Part shown: positions 1 through 12,637 of the stretch, piece after piece | How the letters are laid out: each line of letters opens with the position of its first letter | Position numbering within the stretch: position 1 is the stretch's first letter | Assembly: GCA_037481875.1 (NCBI GenBank) | Contig: JBBFKY010000002.1 | Span: 229,264-293,263, forward strand | Source: Desulfosoma sp. | Lineage (GTDB): Bacteria; Desulfobacterota; Syntrophobacteria; Syntrophobacterales; DSM-9756 | Length of the DNA: 64,000 nucleotides | Direction: 5' to 3' | The notes under the pieces: generated by a model | What the model was told of the DNA's origin: nothing | Databases searched by the model: none | The model's input: only the letters and a program-made list of their open reading frames with translations | Made by a program: the position numbers and the translations under genes

Positions 1-768
1 CGCGAGGCATTGCGGATAGAAGCGGACGAGGACGGCCTCCAGATCTATTTGGATCATAACCGGTGTCTTTTGTGTGAAGTCTGTGCTTATGTGTGCCCTG
101 TCTCGGCCGTATCTCTTCATTACCAAGATCGAGCCAAAGATCTGCTGCGCCTTTCCGGCGGGTTGCCATCCATACCGGAAAAGCTTCATGTGCAAGTAAG
201 CCGTTGTCCGCACCGATGTGAACTTTTGGAAAAACAAGAGGAGCACTGGTGCCGACAGCAGCGCCGCCTTGTGGAAAACCGAGAAGCCTCATGCCCCAAG
301 TACTGCTTTCGTTGTGTCCAGACGTGCCCTCGAGGCGTTTATCGAGAAACACTTGAAGGGACATCGCCTGAGTCCACCTTGTGCCTGCGGTGTGAACAGT
401 GTTTGAAAACCTGCCCTCACGGATCCATTGAGATCAGCCCTCTTTTTCAAGGGACTGTGATCCTCAACGCAGATCTTTGCCCCGACGATTGCGCTCTCTG
501 CCTTGATATTTGTCCGGTCAAGGTCATCCAGCGTCGCGAAGGACGCGTCACATTAGTTCACGACACATGCGCTCTGTGCGGGGCCTGCGCCAACATTTGT
601 GATCGAGACGCCATTCAGGTTGTGCGCGAAGGAGTCCTTGTTTCCGATGAAACCGCATGTCCCTTGTGGATCCGTATTCGGGACGCCCTCACGGGCGCCT
701 TGAACCGAGAAGGCTCCATGCTGAAAGCTTCACCCTCGTCTTCCGTCGGCCGGTGCGAACGTCCATGA
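1..768 (+). CDS. Polyferredoxin (FwdF-like), 5' end outside the window
   Basis: The reading frame is open to base 1, so the gene probably starts upstream; a TTG at 10 is a weaker alternative. The protein carries repeated 4Fe-4S motifs: CLLCEVCAYVCP, CPKYCFRCVQTCP, CLRCEQCLKTCP, CPDDCALCLDICP and CALCGACANICD, plus extra Cys in CPHRCELL. Such multi-cluster ferredoxins act as cytoplasmic electron wires; the spacing and the FwdB/FwdA homologues downstream suggest the FwdF/FmdF type. The stop overlaps the next start as ATGA (765-768), so it is translationally coupled to the HdrA-MvhD gene. The role as an electron conduit between Hdr flavins and the Fwd-like subunits is inferred. I am confident of the ferredoxin class and less sure of the exact subfamily. 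Confidence 0.85.
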   Translation, partial: REALRIEADEDGLQIYLDHNRCLLCEVCAYVCPVSAVSLHYQDRAKDLLRLSGGLPSIPEKLHVQVSRCPHRCELLEKQEEHWCRQQRRLVENREASCPKYCFRCVQTCPRGVYRETLEGTSPESTLCLRCEQCLKTCPHGSIEISPLFQGTVILNADLCPDDCALCLDICPVKVIQRREGRVTLVHDTCALCGACANICDRDAIQVVREGVLVSDETACPLWIRIRDALTGALNREGSMLKASPSSSVGRCERP

Positions 769-3027: not shown

Positions 3028-4794
3028 ATGAGTGATTCCCTCATTTCCACACCCGCACAACCACAAAACCGGAAGTTCTCGGTACCCATCTTCCTGTGTC
3101 GGTGTCCGGAAAGGCATGCCCATCTGAACCTGGAAGAAGCGGCGCAGCGCTTGCGCTCCGATGGCCTCGTCGTTCGTGTCGTGGACACTTTATGCGATGC
3201 CACAAGGTTTCCCTATGAAGTTTTGAAGCCCCTTAGCGCCCAAGGAAAACAGATCCTCATCGGAGCCTGCTCCTTTTCTCTCATAGGTGAACTTTTGCAG
3301 CAAACCCTGGGCCCGGCAGCCCATCTTCCTTGGACCTTGATCGATCTCAAGGAAATTCCGGACGCCACAGCCCTCTACGGAATTCTTAAAGCCCGTCTGC
3401 GCACATTGGAACATGGCTCATCGCCCTTATGCTCGACACCTTTCGTTCGAGGTGGACCGTGGGCTTCGCTGCGCCCTCTCGGCGCCAAGGTTCCACGCCG
3501 GGTCTTGGTTATCGGCGGGGGGGTAGGCGGCTGCCAAGCCGCCCTGGATCTTGCCAACATGAACATTCCGGTCACTTTGGTGGAAGCGGAAGATTCCCTG
3601 GGTGGAAACATGGCCCGGCTGGATAAGACATTTCCCACCTTGGATTGTTCCATCTGCATTCTTGGACCTCGCCTCGTCGACACGGCATCCCACCCCAATA
3701 TCACCGTTTGGGCTTCCTCCCGAGTGAAAAGAATCAGCGGGCGTCCAGGCCATTTTCTTGCGGAAATTGAGCATCGCCCGCGTTATGTGGACATGAACCT
3801 GTGCTCCGGATGCGGAGCCTGTGCCGAAGTCTGCCCTGTCATTGTGCCCAGCGCCTGGAATGCCGGTCTTCGACCTCGTAAAGCCATAGGCATTGTTTTT
3901 GAGCAAGCGGTTCCTTTACGTTCCGCCATTCAAAAGGACTACTGCATCGAATGCGGCTTATGCGAAAAAGCTTGCGAAAGAAAAGCCATTCGCTTGGATG
4001 AAAAACCTCGCGTCAGCCGCCTGCATACGGCGGCCATCATTCTCGCCGAAGGCGCACGCCTTTTTCACGCTACCCATCTCGGTTCCTACGGTTATGGACG
4101 TTTTCCGGAGGTACTCACTAATTTGGAATTTGAGCGGCTGGTGTGTGCTACGGGACCCACCCAAGGCGCTTTGATCACACCGTCCGGGTCAAAGCCGAAA
4201 TCCGTTGCTTTCATTCAATGTGCAGGATCCAGAAACCGCCGGTTTTTGCCTTATTGTTCCGTGACATGCTGCACGGCAAGTATCAAAGAAGCCATGCTTG
4301 TTCTAGAACATGAACCGCAGGCTCAAGTAACCGTTTTTTTCAATGACCTAAGAACGACAGGCAAAAGCTTTGAAGGCCTTCTCATGCGGGCTCGAGAACG
4401 GGGTGTGCGATTCATAAAGGCGCTACCGGATCGGGTGGATCGACTTCGTGATCAGGGTCCCCTCACGGTGCATTATCGATCCTCCTGGGCACCTGGAACC
4501 CAAACCTTAGAAGCGGATCTGGTGATCCTGGCCGTCGGGGTTCAAGCGCCCAATGCGGATTCCAGATGGGTTGTTCGTTCGGCACCTCAAAGGGACAATT
4601 ACGGTTTTTATCAAGAAGCCTTTTATTGGGGAGGCCAAACCCACAGCACGGTTCCCGGCATCTTTTTGGTCGGAGGATGCCATGGTCCAAGGGACATTAC
4701 CCAAACAGTGACCGAAGCGTCCGCGGCTGCGGCTCATGCCGCCAAGTGGTTGCGTCAGGTATCAAGCTCCTCGGTAAAGAGCGAAACGCTATGA
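3028..4794 (+). CDS. HdrA-like FAD/4Fe-4S protein (second copy)
   Basis: This is a 588-residue HdrA homologue. It has a short, divergent N-terminal domain (IFLCRC near residue 22), FAD-binding GGGVGG at about 163, and the HdrA motif DKTFPTLDCSICIL. It also has two inserted 4Fe-4S motifs near 259 and 306 (CSGCGACAEVCP, CIECGLCEKAC), a CAGSR motif near 399, CSVTCC near 410, and a C-terminal FAD motif with GIFLVGGCHGPRDI. It lacks the C-terminal ferredoxin and MvhD domains of the preceding gene, so it is a distinct HdrA type. No convincing ribosome-binding site precedes the ATG; the region just upstream is the palindrome cluster, which may have replaced it. The stop overlaps the next start (ATGA at 4791). 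It probably forms part of the same electron-transfer complex (inference). Confidence 0.88.
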   Translation: MSDSLISTPAQPQNRKFSVPIFLCRCPERHAHLNLEEAAQRLRSDGLVVRVVDTLCDATRFPYEVLKPLSAQGKQILIGACSFSLIGELLQQTLGPAAHLPWTLIDLKEIPDATALYGILKARLRTLEHGSSPLCSTPFVRGGPWASLRPLGAKVPRRVLVIGGGVGGCQAALDLANMNIPVTLVEAEDSLGGNMARLDKTFPTLDCSICILGPRLVDTASHPNITVWASSRVKRISGRPGHFLAEIEHRPRYVDMNLCSGCGACAEVCPVIVPSAWNAGLRPRKAIGIVFEQAVPLRSAIQKDYCIECGLCEKACERKAIRLDEKPRVSRLHTAAIILAEGARLFHATHLGSYGYGRFPEVLTNLEFERLVCATGPTQGALITPSGSKPKSVAFIQCAGSRNRRFLPYCSVTCCTASIKEAMLVLEHEPQAQVTVFFNDLRTTGKSFEGLLMRARERGVRFIKALPDRVDRLRDQGPLTVHYRSSWAPGTQTLEADLVILAVGVQAPNADSRWVVRSAPQRDNYGFYQEAFYWGGQTHSTVPGIFLVGGCHGPRDITQTVTEASAAAAHAAKWLRQVSSSSVKSETL

Positions 4795-6065
4795 CGGCAA
4801 GAACCCTCTCTTCCCTTGTGTGCTGTGGCTGCAGCTGCCTGTGCGACGACATCGACGCCGTTCTTGAAAACGACCGTGTCGTGGAGGTGGGGAATGCTTG
4901 TGCCTGGGGAGCTGCTCGGTTCCTCGAATGGAAAAAGTTCAGTGCTTCCATACCTCGAGCCCGCTGCGGATCTTATCGAAGGCTGAACCGTCAACGTCGT
5001 CAGGTGTTGCAGGCCCACGAGGCCGTGGCGGAATGTCGAGAGTATCTGTTTCATGCCCAGCGGGTGGTGGTCTACGGTTTGGGCCAAATGTCCATGGAAG
5101 CCTTGGAAGGGCTCTTGTTAGGGCTTAGGCGTAGGTCGACCGTCTGGATTCCGTCGGACGGTCACCTTCTGCAAGCTGCCGTCGATCTTTACCGTCAGCA
5201 GTGTCCAGCTTCTACAACCTTGGAATGCGTCCGCAATCACGCCGATTTTGTGCTCTTTTGGGGAGCCAATCCACTACGAAGTACCCCGCGACTTCTTTCC
5301 CGTTACGCCCTGTTTCCCCGAGGAAGATTTACGGAAAGAGGCGCTGAAGATCGCAGCGCCTGGACCGTCGATATTCAGACAACGGAAATGGCCACAGTCA
5401 CGAACCTCATAAAGATTCCCCAGCAAGCCGAAGAAGACTGTGTACAAGCATTGCACGAAGCGAGTCTCGGCCGAGCCTCGACTTTTTCGAAGGAACTTCC
5501 GGCCAAAGAGTTCAAGAGGCTTCTCAAGGATTTGGGAAAAAGTCGGTATCGCGTCTTTTTCTTTGGAAGAGGTCCCCTGTTTCACGAGCACGGTTCGGCG
5601 GTGCTACGGGCTCTGGTTTCCTGGGTGAAGGATCTTGGCGCGACGGCCCCTACGTTTCTTTTGCCTTTACCTTCCGATTTCAACACTGCCGGATTCTTAC
5701 ACATGTTCTTAAGCTATGGTGGATTGTCCAATCCGTTATGGCATCTTCAGGGAGATGTGTACGGATGGATACCGCAGCCCGGGGACGTGCTTTTGGCCGT
5801 CTCGGGAGACTGTTTCTGGTTTTTAACGGACGAGCAAAAACAGGCCGTACGGAACCTGCATATTCCCGTTTTAGCGTTTTCTGCTTACGAAACCATGACC
5901 ACGGCGGAAGCGGATGTGGTCATCGCTGTGGGGCTTCAGGGTCTGGAGGCTTCGGGTTGGGCGGTGCGTCTGGATGGTGTGTCCCTTTTTGCGGAAAAGC
6001 TAAGGGACCATGGTCTGATTTCGGATGAAACCGTGGTAGAGGAATTGTTCGAGCCGTTTTCTTAA
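4791..6065 (+). CDS. Formylmethanofuran dehydrogenase subunit B homologue, apparently lacking the Mo/W ligand
   Basis: The 424-residue protein has the length and layout of FwdB, the molybdopterin subunit that reduces CO2 to formate in methanogens. The N-terminal cluster motif is kept (CCGCSCLCDDI with a later NAC, C-x2-C-x3-C...C). So is the block ADFVLFWGANPLRSTPRLLS, which corresponds to ADVxVYWGCNPMHAHPRHMS, followed by FPRGRFTERG. Counting back from that block without gaps, the position of the Cys or Sec that binds Mo/W is Leu126, and there is no Cys between residues 83 and 137. The protein may therefore be catalytically inactive or work differently. The comparison is from memory. It sits between hdrA and fwdA homologues and overlaps the former by 4 bases. 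No fwdC or fwdD homologue is visible in the window. Confidence 0.82.
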   Translation: MTARTLSSLVCCGCSCLCDDIDAVLENDRVVEVGNACAWGAARFLEWKKFSASIPRARCGSYRRLNRQRRQVLQAHEAVAECREYLFHAQRVVVYGLGQMSMEALEGLLLGLRRRSTVWIPSDGHLLQAAVDLYRQQCPASTTLECVRNHADFVLFWGANPLRSTPRLLSRYALFPRGRFTERGAEDRSAWTVDIQTTEMATVTNLIKIPQQAEEDCVQALHEASLGRASTFSKELPAKEFKRLLKDLGKSRYRVFFFGRGPLFHEHGSAVLRALVSWVKDLGATAPTFLLPLPSDFNTAGFLHMFLSYGGLSNPLWHLQGDVYGWIPQPGDVLLAVSGDCFWFLTDEQKQAVRNLHIPVLAFSAYETMTTAEADVVIAVGLQGLEASGWAVRLDGVSLFAEKLRDHGLISDETVVEELFEPFS

Positions 6066-6079
6066 GAGGACCGAAGAGT

Positions 6080-7507
6080 TTGAAAACATTGCTCATTCAA
6101 TCCGGCACGGTCTACGATGTGGCCTTGGGCTGTGAAGGCCGGATTCAGGATATTGTCGTGCGCGGGGAGACCATTCTCTCCCCGAACGAAGTGTCCCAGG
6201 TGGATGAAATCGTGGACGCTTCCGGCTTTGTGGTGACAGCCGCCGCTGTGGATTGCGCGGCGCACGTGACTTTTCCCGGCGTCTGGCATCTAAGAGCTGC
6301 AGGGCTTTTCCCCGATGCAGAAACCATCGCGCTTCGTTATGCCCAGAGAGGCTTCGGTCATGTCCATGAAAGCTGGACGACTTTGGAGCATGCAGGGTTG
6401 GTACACCAGGCGTGGAATCGAGTGACGAGCCTTCAGGCTTCCATTGGTCTCTGTCTTTCGCTCTACGAACTCATCCCATGGATCGAAACCCAGGATGTGG
6501 AAACCGCAGGCAAAGTGCTCGAACATCTTTGCCGAGTCTTGGGATTATACGGATTTTATCTTTCAGAACCGAGGCTACGGTTTCGAAACGAAGTTTACAA
6601 ACACCGAGAAAAATCAGCCGAAGATCTTCTTCCTTTTCTATGCGAAGCTTGTGCTCATCTACCGGGACCCCTCATGGTGCCTGCCACGGGTTTTTCCGAT
6701 GAGGATATGCAGGCTTTGCCGTCCGGGATGCATCTGCAGAGGATCACCGAACTCTTGGAGCCTAGGGAAAATGACGCATCGTTGAACGCTTCTCAAATTC
6801 TTTACTCTAGCTTGAGCGCCGATCTCGGGCTGACATGGCCTGAAGAAAGTATTCAGCTTACCTGGGTTCCTCCATCTTCGGCTACCGAAGGCTACGTCTG
6901 GGATGTAGGCCCCTATCGCCTTCTCAAAGCTGAACCTCTGCCTAAGCATGACTTCCGAAACCAGAACGAAACTTTGGAACTTATGGCTCACGCCGCTGAA
7001 AAAGGGTGGGCTTTTTCTTGTCGCCATGCCAACCTGGCACTTGTGAAAGACTGGCAAGCTCTCGTGCATGCCGTCTTGAATGTATGGAACCTTCGAGAAT
7101 GGTTACTGGCCACAAGACTTCATGCGGCCAAGGCTTTGGGACTGTCGAACAAGGGGCACCTGTGTCCCGGAGCCCAAGCGGATGTGGCCTTGTATCGAGA
7201 ACCGTCGAAGGATTCACCAGTCGGTTGGGCTCAAACCTTCAGTCGATGCGAGCGGCTTTACGTAAAAGGAAGATTGGTTTACGACGCGTCCCGTGGTGAT
7301 CGACTGCTTCGGTCGAAACCCGAGAGCCGGCGCCCACTTGTGAGGCCGGATGTGGACAAGGCCTTGTTGGGTCCCCTTTTCGAAGGATTGAGCCTGCGGC
7401 CGCAGACCCTGAGCCGTTTGGCTCCCTATCTTGGCTCCAGGATATTGTGCAAGACTAACGCCGAAACCCGCAAGGAAGATTCCGCTCATGAAGCAACGAA
7501 TTCTTGA
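6080..7507 (+). CDS. Formylmethanofuran dehydrogenase subunit A homologue, degenerate amidohydrolase
   Basis: The start is a TTG at 6080 behind AAGAGGA. The N-terminus (YDVALGCEGRIQDIVVRGE, VDASGFVV) and C-terminus (ATRLHAAKALGLSNKGHL followed by GAQADVALY) match the amidohydrolase-fold FwdA, which joins formate to methanofuran using a binuclear metal site. The metal site looks lost. The usual VDxHSH is VDCAAHV, with Ala60 for the first His. The carboxylated-Lys segment YTIKIV reads YGFYLS, the HLHCND segment reads VPATGF, and the TTDxPN segment is not recognisable. At 475 residues it is roughly 90-100 shorter than archaeal FwdA as I recall it. I infer a structural pseudoenzyme retained with the FwdB homologue. 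A diverged dihydroorotase-like enzyme is the alternative, but the FwdB neighbour makes FwdA ancestry more likely. Confidence 0.78.
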   Translation: MKTLLIQSGTVYDVALGCEGRIQDIVVRGETILSPNEVSQVDEIVDASGFVVTAAAVDCAAHVTFPGVWHLRAAGLFPDAETIALRYAQRGFGHVHESWTTLEHAGLVHQAWNRVTSLQASIGLCLSLYELIPWIETQDVETAGKVLEHLCRVLGLYGFYLSEPRLRFRNEVYKHREKSAEDLLPFLCEACAHLPGPLMVPATGFSDEDMQALPSGMHLQRITELLEPRENDASLNASQILYSSLSADLGLTWPEESIQLTWVPPSSATEGYVWDVGPYRLLKAEPLPKHDFRNQNETLELMAHAAEKGWAFSCRHANLALVKDWQALVHAVLNVWNLREWLLATRLHAAKALGLSNKGHLCPGAQADVALYREPSKDSPVGWAQTFSRCERLYVKGRLVYDASRGDRLLRSKPESRRPLVRPDVDKALLGPLFEGLSLRPQTLSRLAPYLGSRILCKTNAETRKEDSAHEATNS

Positions 7508-7937
7508 GCTGCTTCCAAAAACGGACTGCCAAATGTGCGGTATGACCTGCACCGATTTTGCCGATTTTCTTCTCTCGGGTGATCTGACTCCACAGGAATG
7601 TCCAACACTACAGGAAGATGCCTACACGGTCCAAAGAGAAGCTTTGGCCGAACTGCTGGCACAACTGGCGGCTCGAGCCAAAACAGGGCATCTCATCGAC
7701 CGTGACAAGTGTTCGGGCTGCGGTATCTGCCTGATTGTGTGCGAATACAATGCTGCCAATGACTCCGAAAGCCGACAGGGCAAAGGCCCTTACGCCGGCG
7801 CCAAAGTGGTGCTTCGAATCATCAACGGGCGGGTCGTTTTGGCTGACGAGACCTTGTGCACTCGACTGCTGCAAGCTGCGGACAAATGCAGCAAATGCCA
7901 GGATCATTGCCCCACTCAGGCCATTGTTTTGGTGTAG
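7488..7937 (+). CDS. Ferredoxin with an N-terminal FeS (PF04060-type) domain
   Basis: The ATG at 7488 has AAGGAAG upstream and lies inside the end of the fwdA-like gene (20-base overlap). The 149-residue protein begins with a C-x2-C-x3-C-x16-C cluster (C14, C17, C21, C38) of the kind found in RnfB and corrinoid Fe-S proteins. Two 4Fe-4S ferredoxin motifs follow, CSGCGICLIVCEYNA and CSKCQDHCPTQAI with a preceding Cys. It is soluble with no signal peptide. By position it should pass electrons between the Fwd-like pair and the Hdr subunits (inference). FeS-domain ferredoxins next to fwd-like genes recall FwdG/FwdE-type subunits, but I cannot assign it to one. Confidence 0.85.
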   Translation: MKQRILELLPKTDCQMCGMTCTDFADFLLSGDLTPQECPTLQEDAYTVQREALAELLAQLAARAKTGHLIDRDKCSGCGICLIVCEYNAANDSESRQGKGPYAGAKVVLRIINGRVVLADETLCTRLLQAADKCSKCQDHCPTQAIVLV

Positions 7938-7949
7938 AGGCCAGGAGAT

Positions 7950-8456
7950 ATGAGCCTCATGGAAGCGATTGAGAAAAAGAAAATGGGGAAGGCGGAACTC
8001 TTGACCGGCGATTCTGGTTTTGCCGAAGAGATTATGGCGGCTCCAGGCGGCGAGACCTTGTCCCTGTGTTATCAGTGCGGTACATGCACGGGCTGCTGCC
8101 CGGTCAGTGCCGTGGACGAAGGGTTCAGTCCCGCACAAATCATTCAATGGATTCTATTGGGTCTGCGCACGCTTGTCCTGAGTTCTTCCAAGATATGGCT
8201 GTGCCTTCGATGCCATCGCTGTTCTTTTTATTGTCCGCAGGGAGTGCGATTTGCGGATATCAACGCCACATTGGCGCATCTTTCCGTGCAGGAAGGTTTC
8301 ATGAGCGCTTCAAAGGTGGAACGCCTTTCGGCGTTGGAATCTCATCTGGCGGCTTTGCGTTGTGCCGCCATTCAAAGGGTGTTGAACCTGTCAGAGCAGG
8401 ACACGGAAGACATGGACACCTTGATTCAAAACGTTCTGAGGGAACGGCATGGGTAG
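7950..8456 (+). CDS. HdrC-like 4Fe-4S protein
   Basis: A good ribosome-binding site (AGGAGAT) precedes the ATG. The 168-residue protein has two classical HdrC cluster motifs, CYQCGTCTGCCP (from residue 40) and CLRCHRCSFYCP (from residue 85). Helical segments follow, as in HdrC, DsrK-like N-termini and QmoC. HdrC links the flavin subunit HdrA to the catalytic HdrB. No hdrB gene (CCG domains) is present in the window, so its partner is either upstream of the window, encoded elsewhere, or absent. It overlaps the next gene by 8 bases. Confidence 0.87.
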   Translation: MSLMEAIEKKKMGKAELLTGDSGFAEEIMAAPGGETLSLCYQCGTCTGCCPVSAVDEGFSPAQIIQWILLGLRTLVLSSSKIWLCLRCHRCSFYCPQGVRFADINATLAHLSVQEGFMSASKVERLSALESHLAALRCAAIQRVLNLSEQDTEDMDTLIQNVLRERHG

Positions 8457-11400
8457 CACGTCGTGGCGACACGAACGCTCGGGGAAGGCACCTTACCAGA
8501 CCATCGTGGTTGTGGGAGGGGGCGTGGCCGGGCTTCATGCCGCATTGCAGGCTGCCGATTTAGGCCATGACGTGGTCCTTTTGGAAAGAGATCTGGCCTT
8601 GGGCGGGCATATGGCGCAGCTGGACAAGACGTACCCGACCCTTGACTGTTCCTTGTGCATTCTGTCCCCACGTCTGCTCGCCGTCGGCCGTCACCCGAAG
8701 ATTCGGGTGCTGGTCCGAGCACGATTGGATCGAGTGGAAGGATGTGCCGGGTCTTTCGTGTGTTCGGTAACCCGTGAACCCACCTACGTGGACGCTTCGA
8801 AATGTATCGGCTGCGGCAGCTGCCAGCGAGCCTGTCCTGTGGAAAGACCGGACCCTTACAATCTGAACCTTGGCATGACCAAAGCCATTCGAATCCTTTA
8901 CCCGCAGGCCTATCCCGCAGTCCCGGCCATCGATACGGCAACATGCTTGCATTTTCAGGGGGAAACCTGTTCACGATGCGCCGATGTGTGTCCCACAGGA
9001 GCCATTCATTTTCAAGACCAACCTGAGGCCATGGAAATTGACGCGGGCGCTCTCATCCTCGCTTCGGGTTTTGATCTTTTGGACCGCGAAGACCTTCAAG
9101 AACCGTATTGGCTTGACAGCCCTCATGTTTTGACCAACCTGGAACTGGAAAGATACCTGAGCGCCACCGGACCCACTCGAGGTGTCCTTCACCCATCAGG
9201 GCTTCCACATCCGCCACGGCATATCGTTTTTGCTCAGTGTGTTGGATCCAGGGATCCTTCCTATGGTGTGCCCTATTGTTCACATTATTGTTGCGCCGCC
9301 GCTTTAAAGCAGATCTACGTGGCCGCTTCTTTTCCTCATGTGGAACGCATTACCCTCTGTGCCATGGACGTCAGGGCCCATGGAAGGGACTGCGAACCCT
9401 TTTTTCGAAGGGTTCAGGCCTTGGAAAAGGTGCGTCTTGTCCACGGCAAAGTGGCCCGTATTTTACCGAAAACCAAAGATACCGGGGTCGAGGTATGGGC
9501 TTCGCACGGCGGCCTTGTCTGGCATGCGGAAGCTGATCTCGTCGTTTTGGCCATGGGCATGCGGCCTTCACGAGAAGCCGTTGGGATCGCCAAGGCTTTG
9601 GGACTCCACATGGATCCCCACAACTTTGTTCGCATCAAAGAACACCACACGGTGCACACGTCCTTGGACGGTGTCTATGCGTGTGGCACCTTCATGGGCC
9701 CTAAGAGTATTCCCTCCACGGTCCAGGAAGCCTACGCGGCGGCCGTGGCGGCCAGCGCCCGTTTGTCATCGGGCATGATTACCGCCGGGCGCCCTTGTCA
9801 GAGCTTTTTATCCTCATCGCCATCTCCTTCCCAGGACTTGACTGAAGCGTCCAGATATCTCGGCGCATTTCCTGAAACAAACACTTATGCGGACGTGAAC
9901 ACCTCTGTTCGTGTCGGTGTTTTTGTGTGTCGATGCGGAACGAACATCGCCGGCGTTATCGACACAAAACAGCTTGCTCAATGGGCGAAACAGCTTCCTT
10001 GTGTGGCTCACGTGGCCGAGAACCTCTTTTCCTGTTCCACCGACGCGACCGCACGCATGGCCAGGATCCTTCAAGAGAAGAAACTGAATCGAGTCGTGGT
10101 GGCCGCCTGTTCTCCTCGAAGTCATCTTCCCGTGTTTCAAGACGTTTTGGCAAAAGCCGGACTTCCTCCAGGTTATGTGCGCATGGTGAACATTCGAGAA
10201 CAAGGTTCCTGGGTGCACAAGGACGAGCCTGAAAAGGCCCTGCACAAAGCCAAGGTTCTCCTTGCAGCGGCCGTAGCCCAGGTGCGGGCGGCGCAGCCGG
10301 CACGGGTTATAGAAATCCCCGTGGCTCCTTCAGCCCTGGTTCTGGGAAGCAGCGCCGCGGCACTGACGGCTGCGCTGCGCCTGGCGGACAACGGAATCCA
10401 TGTTCTGGTAGTGGAATCGGGAAACACGTTCGGCGGCCGTCTTTCTCAGGCTTCTTTTGAAAAACCCCATGTCAATGTGGATCGATTGTACCGACATTTT
10501 TTGAGCCGCATTCGAACACAGTCTCGAATTCGCGTCTTGATGAATACAAGCCTTGTGGAATGCCGAGGAAGCCTGGGACGGTTTCAAGTGGAACTGCATC
10601 GCAAGGTGCCGGGAACCGAAGTCGTTGAAGAACGTGTGCTCGAAATCTTTGGAACCATTCTCATCGCCGTGGGAGCTCAGGTCTGGAAGCCGGGAAATCT
10701 CTTTTCATACGGCACGGTGCCGCAGGTGATCACACAAGAGGAACTGGCCGAAGCTTTAGGGCAAGGGAGCCTGGATCTGCGCAACGCTCGTCGAGTGGTC
10801 ATGATCCAGTGCGTGGGATCTCGCAACGATGAGCGCCCCTATTGCAGTCGATCCTGCTGCCAGCAGGCCGTGTCCCATGCTTTGGAACTTCGCGCCCGGT
10901 TTCCACATCTCACCATCACCGTGCTTCATCGAGATATGCGTACCTACGGCCTTGCAGAACTCATTTACCAAAAGGCCCGTCGCGAGGGTATTCGGTTCCT
11001 GCGTTATGACGAAAAACAGCCGCCGCATGTGGTACCGACACGATTCGGCCGCCGTTCCACGGTGGACCTTCATTGGAACGATCCCGACAGCGGAAGATCC
11101 TTTCACGAACGAGCAGACCTTCTGGTTCTAAGCACAGCCACGGTGCCGGCTTTTGAAAATCAGCACATAGCCTCCATTCTTCGAGTGCCCCTGACCGCCG
11201 AGGGGTTTTTCATGGAACGACACGTGAAACTGGCCCCGGTGGAAACTTCCGTGGAAGGCATCTTTATCGCGGGCCAGTGTCATGCCCCGAAAACCCTTGC
11301 GGAGGCCTTGGTCCAAGGCGATGCGGCTGCTGCCAAGATGCTGGCCGTTTATCGGGAAGGCGTGGTGCGACGTCCTGCCTTCATTGCGACGATCGACTCA

Positions 11401-11637
11401 GGCCGTTGTTCCCGATGTCTGAGTTGCGCTGCAGTGTGCCCCGCCCAGGCTGTGCAGGTGCCGGCTGTGGGGGGGGTGCGGGTGGATCCGGGAGCATGCC
11501 GCGGATGCGGTTTATGTGTTGCTGAATGTCCCGCCGAAGCCATCGATCTTGCAGGTGCGGAAAACCATGGTTTGTTAAAGGGCATGCCGCTGATGGAAGG
11601 GATCGACAAGACTGTCCAAAAAGAGACGCGTGGATAA
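8449..11637 (+). CDS. Tandem HdrA-HdrA fusion protein
   Basis: The 1062-residue protein contains two HdrA modules. Module 1 (about 1-450) has GGGVAG at 23, DKTYPTLDCSLCIL, 4Fe-4S motifs near 119 and 174 (CIGCGSCQRACP, CSRCADVCP), CVGSR near 264 and CSHYCC. Module 2 starts near 488 with the HdrA N-terminal signature VGVFVCRCGTNIAGV, then a nucleotide-binding segment, CVGSR near 788, CSRSCC near 800, and two ferredoxin motifs near 987 and 1017 (CSRCLSCAAVCP, CRGCGLCVAECP). In module 2 the FAD glycine motif reads GSSAAA instead of GGGxGG, so its flavin binding may be weakened or lost. Together with the two other HdrA genes this gives four HdrA modules in one operon. The function is inferred to be flavin-based electron transfer; the electron acceptor is unknown. 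Confidence 0.88.
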   Translation: MGSTSWRHERSGKAPYQTIVVVGGGVAGLHAALQAADLGHDVVLLERDLALGGHMAQLDKTYPTLDCSLCILSPRLLAVGRHPKIRVLVRARLDRVEGCAGSFVCSVTREPTYVDASKCIGCGSCQRACPVERPDPYNLNLGMTKAIRILYPQAYPAVPAIDTATCLHFQGETCSRCADVCPTGAIHFQDQPEAMEIDAGALILASGFDLLDREDLQEPYWLDSPHVLTNLELERYLSATGPTRGVLHPSGLPHPPRHIVFAQCVGSRDPSYGVPYCSHYCCAAALKQIYVAASFPHVERITLCAMDVRAHGRDCEPFFRRVQALEKVRLVHGKVARILPKTKDTGVEVWASHGGLVWHAEADLVVLAMGMRPSREAVGIAKALGLHMDPHNFVRIKEHHTVHTSLDGVYACGTFMGPKSIPSTVQEAYAAAVAASARLSSGMITAGRPCQSFLSSSPSPSQDLTEASRYLGAFPETNTYADVNTSVRVGVFVCRCGTNIAGVIDTKQLAQWAKQLPCVAHVAENLFSCSTDATARMARILQEKKLNRVVVAACSPRSHLPVFQDVLAKAGLPPGYVRMVNIREQGSWVHKDEPEKALHKAKVLLAAAVAQVRAAQPARVIEIPVAPSALVLGSSAAALTAALRLADNGIHVLVVESGNTFGGRLSQASFEKPHVNVDRLYRHFLSRIRTQSRIRVLMNTSLVECRGSLGRFQVELHRKVPGTEVVEERVLEIFGTILIAVGAQVWKPGNLFSYGTVPQVITQEELAEALGQGSLDLRNARRVVMIQCVGSRNDERPYCSRSCCQQAVSHALELRARFPHLTITVLHRDMRTYGLAELIYQKARREGIRFLRYDEKQPPHVVPTRFGRRSTVDLHWNDPDSGRSFHERADLLVLSTATVPAFENQHIASILRVPLTAEGFFMERHVKLAPVETSVEGIFIAGQCHAPKTLAEALVQGDAAAAKMLAVYREGVVRRPAFIATIDSGRCSRCLSCAAVCPAQAVQVPAVGGVRVDPGACRGCGLCVAECPAEAIDLAGAENHGLLKGMPLMEGIDKTVQKETRG

Positions 11638-11647
11638 GGAGCCGACG

Positions 11648-12637
11648 ATGCAGACGGAAGCACCTGAAAGGAACTTGGGACTTGACTTGGTTCGCGTCAC
11701 AGAGGCCGCCGCCTTGGCGGCGGCTCGATGGCTCGGCCGCGGAGATGGCAAGGCCGGTGACAAAGCGGCGGTAGACGCCATGAGGTTAAGCTTCAATGCG
11801 GTGGATATCGACGGCATTGTGGTCATCGGGGAAGGGGAAAAAGACAAGGCGCCGATGCTCTACAACGGCGAGAAATTAGGGACGGGCCGAGGTCCGAAGG
11901 TGGACGTGGCCGTAGATCCCGTTGAAGGCACACGCCTTTTGGCCCAAGGACGTCCCAACGCCATATCGGTCGTGGCCATGGCCCCCCGGGGTTCCATGTA
12001 CAACCCAGGTCCTGCCTTTTACATGAATAAACTGGCCGTGCCCGCTCCGGCTCGTGACGCCATCGACCTGGATGCTTCACCCGAAGACAATCTGAAAAAC
12101 ATTGCCAGGGCTTTAGGAAAAGATGTGGACGACCTTACGGTCTTTGTCCTAGACAAACCGCGCCACAGGGAACTCATCGCGCATATTCGAAAAGCCGGAG
12201 CTCGCATCCAGCTTCACACCGACGGGGATGTGGCGGGAGCCCTTATGGCCGTACTGCCGGACAGTTCCGTGGATGTCATGATGGGCACCGGAGGAACTCC
12301 GGAAGGTGTGCTGGCCGCTGCCGCCATCAAGGTTGTGGGCGGCGAAATGCTGGGCCGTCTGGATCCCCAGTCTGCTGCTGAAAAAGAAGCCTTGTTGAAA
12401 GCCGGCTATGATTTGCAGCGGGTGCTCAGCACCCATGATCTCATTCGAAGTGATGATGTGTTTTTTGCCGCCACAGGAATCAGTGGAGGGGATTTTCTTC
12501 CCGGAGTCCGTTTCACGGGTCGAGGAGCTGTCACCTACTCCCTGGTGATGCGCGGCAAAACAGGAACGGTCCGCCGTATCGAAGCGCTCCACTCCTTCGA
12601 ACAACTCATGCAGATCAGCGCCATCTCTTACGACTGA
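11648..12637 (+). CDS. glpX: Class II fructose-1,6-bisphosphatase
   Basis: The ATG at 11648 lies 6 bases after AAGGAG, 10 bases past the stop of the HdrA fusion; a GTG at 11630 overlapping that stop is less likely. The 329-residue protein shows the GlpX signatures GEGEKD (about residue 61) and DPVEGT (about 90), which bind metal and the sugar phosphate. The enzyme hydrolyses fructose-1,6-bisphosphate to fructose-6-phosphate in gluconeogenesis, as expected in an anaerobe that builds sugars from small carbon compounds. Its position at the end of the Hdr/Fwd-like operon may mean co-expression with that redox module, or simple read-through; no terminator is visible between them. Confidence 0.93.
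   Translation: MQTEAPERNLGLDLVRVTEAAALAAARWLGRGDGKAGDKAAVDAMRLSFNAVDIDGIVVIGEGEKDKAPMLYNGEKLGTGRGPKVDVAVDPVEGTRLLAQGRPNAISVVAMAPRGSMYNPGPAFYMNKLAVPAPARDAIDLDASPEDNLKNIARALGKDVDDLTVFVLDKPRHRELIAHIRKAGARIQLHTDGDVAGALMAVLPDSSVDVMMGTGGTPEGVLAAAAIKVVGGEMLGRLDPQSAAEKEALLKAGYDLQRVLSTHDLIRSDDVFFAATGISGGDFLPGVRFTGRGAVTYSLVMRGKTGTVRRIEALHSFEQLMQISAISYD

Follow-up and report, generated by a model that had tools for sequence, protein, structure and literature searches.

In methanogens, the electron route from heterodisulfide reductase (Hdr) to formylmethanofuran dehydrogenase (Fwd) passes through the polyferredoxin FwdF and FwdG. Complexes of this kind, in which Hdr gives low-potential electrons to Fwd or Fmd, include Fdh-Hdr-Fmd and Mvh-Hdr-Fwd (PMC12054007, PMC12350162). 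Inactive proteins of the MopB fold have also been reported in Hdr systems, namely ElpA (PMC12350162) and the Molybdop protein associated with type II fused HdrA (PMC12054007), and FwdB-family hits without the Cys have been mentioned in passing (PMC10100899). Here we describe an operon in a 64,000-nucleotide stretch of the Desulfosoma sp. contig JBBFKY010000002.1 (the window), in which Hdr genes surround adjacent homologues of FwdB and FwdA, written FwdB' and FwdA', that have lost the residues expected for catalysis and probably serve a soluble Hdr complex as an arm for electron transfer and scaffolding.

4791..6065, + strand: FwdB', 424 amino acids; FwdB homologue without the molybdenum/tungsten (Mo/W)-ligand Cys, the catalytic His and the Arg
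6080..7507, + strand: FwdA'; FwdA homologue with about four of six metal-ligand positions lost (A60, Y160, R315 and a deleted His segment)

With the FwdABCDFG-Hdr supercomplexes (5t5i, 7bkb, 8rja) this locus shares the FwdB and FwdA folds, their adjacency, a FwdF-like polyferredoxin and clustered HdrA and HdrC, but it lacks the Cys/His/Arg of FwdB, most FwdA ligands, FwdC, FwdD and HdrB, and adds an iron-sulfur protein of family PF04060. The Fhc complex of methylotrophs (FhcABCD, 6s6y) likewise pairs a Mo-free FwdB relative, the scaffold FhcB, with a FwdA relative; however, FhcB is without the N-terminal iron-sulfur domain and FhcA is active with FhcC and FhcD, whereas the present module keeps its cluster ligands, has lost the FwdA' site and carries Hdr genes in the place of FhcCD. 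Membership of the Fhc group was not indicated, with A-subunit ligands lost and FwdC/FhcC not over cut-off (FhcD, or Ftr, was not searched). The type II HdrA clusters of Methanosarcina and anaerobic methanotrophic (ANME)-2/3 archaea also combine a dead molybdopterin-oxidoreductase fold with an HdrA-HdrA fusion and MvhD, but archaeal Molybdop forms a clade close to FdhG/FhcB and is accompanied by FdhB and HdrBC (PMC12054007), whereas FwdB' groups with FwdB (by profile and Foldseek), has FwdA' and PF04060 partners, and no FdhB was found among the window operon genes by profile searches. ElpABC-Hdr of Methanothermobacter marburgensis (8rvu, PMC12350162) provides another Mo-free relative of a formate-active subunit in an Hdr setting, to which the FwdB' model shows a match (8rvu_D), although ElpA derives from FdhA, has lost the pterin domain and receives electrons from the F420H2-oxidising ElpB, which is not present in the module. 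NuoG of complex I is a further Mo-free MopB fold in iron-sulfur electron transfer, but it belongs to a membrane complex, has other neighbours and is only about 13% identical to FwdB'.

Distinctive of this module are its origin from FwdB proper, a FwdA' partner with graded loss, a regular PF04060 protein and the lack of HdrB. Following ElpA and the ANME/Methanosarcina Molybdop, it appears to be the third case of a dead Mo/W formate-active subunit being independently drawn into Hdr electron transfer; among those compared, no other has FwdA accompanying FwdB and also decaying. No description of the module was found in the literature on bacterial Fwd and Hdr, most subscription journals being outside the search, and PMC13101534, PMC6085437 and PMC5109826 do not describe it.

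Loss of the catalytic residues of FwdB'

FwdB' was matched over its full length by TIGR03129 with 205 bits, below the curated cut-off of 327.8, and its AlphaFold2 model (predicted local distance difference test, pLDDT, 84) had FwdB of 5t5i as its top Foldseek match in the Protein Data Bank (template modelling score, TM, 0.84), followed by Mo-free NuoG, FhcB (6s6y) and, lower down, 8rvu_D of Elp-Hdr. FwdA' was matched only weakly by TIGR03121 (59.7 bits, in two end segments); its relatives in family f42 (families, genomes and sampled loci or sequences are labelled f, G and L, respectively) provide a link to genuine FwdA, with 209 bits to the profile and approximately 140 bits to 5t5i_A. The FwdA' model (pLDDT 87) had 5t5i_A, FwdA, as first match (TM 0.72, E 1.6e-19). 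By profile, phylogeny and AlphaFold/Foldseek comparison, the two proteins are thus true homologues of FwdB and FwdA.

Both HMMER alignments against 8rja_B, 5t5i_B and 7bkb_H and a MAFFT alignment with 34 homologous open reading frames (ORFs) placed Leu126 of FwdB' on the Mo/W-ligand Cys118 of 5t5i_B, as had been proposed in the initial annotation of this DNA, and the positions of the cysteines (11, 12, 14, 16, 18, 37, 59, 82, 138, 146, 217 and 341) agree with its statement that none lies between 83 and 137. The catalytic loss went further than that annotation had noticed: His119 and Arg288 (5t5i_B numbering), which are catalytic residues in this family, are also gone, with Gln at the His of the CHGP motif and Pro at Arg288.

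FwdB' homologues were present in 35 of the 395 sampled genomes of the phylum. Scans of genome contigs gave none with a single protein but did recover homologues with an alignment. A combined alignment demonstrated that the Cys/His/Arg triad is missing from every full-length member of the clade across five families of the Desulfobacterota, so that the survey of homologues suggested in the initial annotation found the losses to be common to the whole clade. The Cys of CHGP is replaced by L, F, W, V or M and RGHYN has become xDFN; most members have D-x-FWFL in place of DPGAHFP, and Trp343 did not vary in an alignment of 21 sequences. By contrast, CHGP and RGH were kept in the complete FwdB that the same scan retrieved from archaeal methanogens and alkane oxidisers. 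In a midpoint-rooted FwdB tree (L078 and L102 being long branches), a branch supported at 100/99 separated 36 FwdB' rows from all other FwdB. The losses are therefore not due to chance, since all full-length members of this 36-row clade have the same Cys/His/Arg loss. The Cys has been lost separately in a few other lineages, L076 (Arg), L133 (Ser), L123 (His) and L135 (Ala). One f16-type FwdB' (L124:2920-3774) was located on a short contig labelled as a Thermoplasmata archaeon, which is probably misbinned, or possibly represents a transfer.

The [4Fe-4S] motif that the initial annotation described as intact is indeed preserved, with C11, C14, C18 and C37 invariant in the alignment. This bears on the rather unlikely alternative that the pair serves purely as a scaffold of the complex, in the manner of FhcB in Fhc, with electrons bypassing the FwdB' cluster. 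A Mo-free scaffolding role is known for FhcB (Table 1 of PMC10100899) and has been proposed for archaeal Molybdop (PMC12054007), but FhcB (6s6y_B) aligns only from profile position 69, its cluster domain being missing, whereas all four cluster cysteines of FwdB' are invariant and its regular partner, the PF04060 protein, has 12 invariant cysteines.

The bis-pterin site of Fwd is completed by a dinucleotide-binding domain, which FwdD contributes. No FwdC or FwdD gene was present in the FwdB' clusters. In the window genome no FwdC exceeded the cut-off (TIGR03122 best 20.5 bits against 130.65) and no stand-alone FwdD-type PF01568 domain was found, all PF01568 hits lying within ORFs of at least 543 amino acids; such stand-alone domains were likewise not found in the well-assembled FwdB' genomes G316, G187, G044, G336, G214, G110 and G075. 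The fragmented FwdB' genomes G086, G144 and G039, which contained some short or partial PF01568 hits, are unsuited to judge FwdD. Stand-alone PF01568 domains of 116-133 amino acids do adjoin FwdB-type genes in G108, G182 and G208. Pterin binding by FwdB', one of the roles raised in the initial annotation, is disfavoured because FwdD is absent from both operon and genome, and binding of Mo/W, as judged from sequence, is unlikely. It is also improbable that FwdB' binds Mo/W-bis(pyranopterin guanine dinucleotide) without a protein ligand and catalyses another reaction. In AioA no amino acid ligates Mo (PMC10100899), and a WGxNP...RY...RG...DR...VD segment is common to FwdB' and catalytic FwdB, but FwdB' has lost His119 and Arg288, its RGHYN and DPGAHFP loops are now xDFN and D-x-FWFL, and FwdD is missing even though related FwdB loci with FwdD exist.

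The FwdB' of f42 at L066:9427-10710, which is without the catalytic Cys, scored 372 bits and so exceeds the NCBIfam equivalog cut-off of 327.8; automatic annotation would therefore call it formylmethanofuran dehydrogenase subunit B, and because some FwdB' pass this cut-off, reconstructions of bacterial one-carbon (C1) pathways can be wrong. Genuine-looking bacterial FwdB were encountered at L074 and L075 (f37, Desulfobacterota), with Cys and Arg kept (527 bits), together with FwdC and a FwdA that has all ligands.

Graded loss of metal ligands in FwdA'

At the six FwdA ligand columns (His/His/Lys/His/His/Asp), window FwdA' has A60, H62, Y160, H218, a deletion and R315, thus retaining approximately two of the six binuclear-site ligands, His62 (the second His of HxH) and probably His218. 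Three of the replacements had been read correctly beforehand: VDCAAHV, beginning at residue 57, stands in place of VDxHSH, Tyr160 occupies the column of the carboxylated Lys, and the Asp of TTDxPN is lost, Arg315 falling on its column. The claim of a lost metal site therefore holds for about four of six positions, His62 and probably His218 remaining. The segment FTHLQFHSY is deleted in all FwdA', and its His may be counted as a metal ligand by analogy with amidohydrolases.

The extent of loss differs between families. FwdA' of f42 has His, His, Lys, His, the deletion and Asp, or five of six ligands kept, whereas no member of f1, f10, f54 or f16 has the Lys, only one has the Asp, and each lacks one or both HxH His. 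Both partners are decayed in the window, as was stated initially, but this was not one shared loss, in that f42 FwdA' keeps most ligands. Since the FwdB' losses are clade-wide, this order of decay indicates that FwdB' died before FwdA', the former in the common ancestor and the latter subsequently. Family f42 looks like the Fhc situation, with a dead B subunit and a possibly active A subunit, and the window looks like the end point of the decay.

An arrangement in which FwdB' is inert and FwdA' an active metal-dependent amidohydrolase of a C1 pathway, as in Fhc, is nevertheless very improbable. Besides the HxH, Lys, His and STDxP Asp kept in f42 FwdA', the beta subunit of carbon monoxide dehydrogenase/acetyl-CoA synthase (CODH/ACS) was present in 28 of 30 FwdB' genomes (Fisher 0.0009, ignoring kinship of the genomes). 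However, the ligand losses in the other four families, the deletion in all FwdA', and the lack of an over-cut-off FwdC, the joining subunit, in the window genome argue against it, and for window FwdA' the hydrolase reading fails on the predicted ligands.

Operon structure, synteny and selection

Profile searches of the window ORFs revealed one tight operon filling the first 12.6 kb, from the polyferredoxin gene to glpX, in which genes overlap or are separated by at most 15 bases, except for 124 bases preceding hdrA. The start of fwdB' overlaps the stop of the upstream hdrA (ATGA at 4791-4794). The remaining genes are:

10..768, + strand: polyferredoxin with FwdF as best match (NF042909 FwdF, 1.8e-18; Fer4 domains); truncated by the window start, relatives being about 280-310 amino acids, with the whole gene in L048/L049
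657..2903, + strand: HdrA with C-terminal MvhD (FlpD) domain (NF040770, 708 bits; PF02662, 1.9e-45); the real start is probably near 765 rather than 657
3028..4794, + strand: HdrA-like flavoprotein carrying two cluster motifs of ferredoxin type (NF040770, 450 bits; Fer4 domains)
7488..7937, + strand: PF04060 and Fer4 iron-sulfur protein, the constant companion of FwdB'/FwdA'
7950..8456, + strand: HdrC (TIGR03290, 3.1e-20) with eight invariant cluster cysteines
8449..11637, + strand: HdrA-HdrA fusion, 1062 amino acids (NF040770, 776.6 bits in three stretches)
11630..12637, + strand: glpX, class II fructose-bisphosphatase (TIGR00330, above cut-off), overlapping the operon end

Locus comparison found glpX adjoining the module only in the window genus, hence it is not part of the conserved set. 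Five families have conserved the trio of FwdB', FwdA' and the PF04060 iron-sulfur protein, arranged in one of three gene orders; HdrC and the HdrA fusion follow it in three of these families (f1, f10 and f54), whilst HdrA-MvhD, with or without HdrA, lay near the trio in most f1, f10 and f42 loci. A polyferredoxin is a further usual companion. All 12 cysteines of the PF04060 protein were invariant (n=30), leaving room for three cubane clusters, as were all eight cluster cysteines of HdrC (n=17), and the flavin adenine dinucleotide (FAD) motif GGGVGG of HdrA-MvhD is intact. No HdrB (PF02754, CCG) was found in the operon, and 17 matches occurred elsewhere in the window genome.

Of the FAD motifs in the HdrA-HdrA fusion, the second was degenerate in all four f1 members carrying the fusion (GSSxAAL; GSSAAAL in the window), and intact (GGG type) in f10/f54 members. 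Operons of f10/f54 also harboured a recurrent cyclophilin gene between fwdB' and fwdA' (L051:10649-11179) and, downstream of the HdrA fusion, a recurrent gene for a Cys-rich DUF3795 protein (L051:16675-17094), neither of which is in the window operon. In one f42 genome, a retron St85-type reverse transcriptase and effector are encoded just upstream of the trio (L066:6452-8499).

Relative to a congener, approximate dN/dS values (nonsynonymous to synonymous substitution rates) were 0.14 for FwdB' and 0.15 for FwdA', near those of the other operon genes. FwdA' is the fastest-evolving operon protein (41% identity to Desulfacinum), which, with the degenerate FAD motif of the fusion in f1, could be taken to mean that the pair is decaying and functionless. 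We consider this barely credible: the frames are open, with translational overlaps and synteny kept, and decay was ruled out by the dN/dS of about 0.15 and by residues invariant over five families. Ancestral clade-wide loss, purifying selection, invariant iron-sulfur cysteines and synteny make it well supported that the pair has been kept as a non-catalytic module beside Hdr proteins, as initially suggested; of the roles then offered, electron transfer and/or scaffolding are favoured.

Proposed role in a soluble Hdr complex

In the explanation we favour as probable, FwdB' and FwdA' form a Fwd-derived, Mo/W-free, catalytically dead pair which, with the 12-Cys protein, would provide electron transfer and scaffolding as one arm of a soluble, flavin-based Hdr complex comprising the polyferredoxin, HdrA-MvhD, HdrA, HdrC and the HdrA-HdrA fusion. 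The module has retained all electron-carrying ligands, whilst the catalytic ligands are gone. The FwdB' [4Fe-4S] cluster would relay electrons between the iron-sulfur protein or polyferredoxin and the HdrA flavins, taking the place of the FwdG/FwdF-to-FwdB step of methanogen Hdr-Fwd. The methanogen wire would thus be kept and its CO2-reducing end removed, electrons being exchanged with a partner docked there, which is probably ferredoxin, and FwdA' may be mainly structural, holding the arm. The end acceptor or oxidising end, normally HdrB, would be supplied in trans from another locus, with a low-potential ferredoxin the most likely other partner.

Several points weigh against this explanation. 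The f16 trio has no Hdr genes nearby, hence Hdr is not obligatory in cis, and it is gene order that suggests membership of a single complex. The dN/dS values are approximate because dS exceeds 1. Furthermore, the motif WGxNPxxxxPRxxxRYxxFxRGRFTERGxxDR is common to FwdB' and catalytic FwdB, and could be either a leftover pterin site or a partner interface.

More tentatively, the operon may encode a new flavin-based complex for electron bifurcation or confurcation in the Desulfobacterota, with up to four HdrA domains and no HdrB. The dead Fwd module, including the 12-Cys protein, would then stand in for the end that reduces the substrate, and redox partners such as ferredoxin or a CODH-type protein could dock there interchangeably. 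The module is a conserved HdrB-less Hdr gene set of sulfate reducers, and because one relative, Desulfacinum hydrothermale, is in culture, it is open to experiment.

CODH/ACS genes and inactive Cdh paralogues

A functional link of the module to CODH/ACS was set aside, as the beta subunit is common across the phylum (267 of 395 genomes) and genes of the type here termed CdhA' adjoin the trio only in f42 and G077, being absent from the f1/f10/f54 genomes. CdhA' and CdhB' are paralogues of the CODH/ACS alpha and epsilon subunits (L066:12851-15849; L141-L146, L149-L154, L156, L157; L147; L148) in which the conserved His of GHN (GND/GFD), the His of GPH (GPN and others) and one Cys (ICC to IGS/IGP) have been lost, with other cluster cysteines kept. 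A true-looking CdhA from G182 (L155) has kept all these residues. A second FwdB-like group (L072:6201-12863 and L076:6635-8761) adjoins both an iron-sulfur protein resembling PF04060 and a domain of FwdD type. CdhA'/CdhB' lie near it in L072 and CdhB' in L076; its Mo-ligand position is Cys in L072 and Arg in L076. One CdhA'/CdhB' pair lies beside the FwdB'-FwdA'-iron-sulfur trio in f42, and by their residues these paralogues would represent a further dead C1 enzyme, sharing the fate of the Fwd pair.

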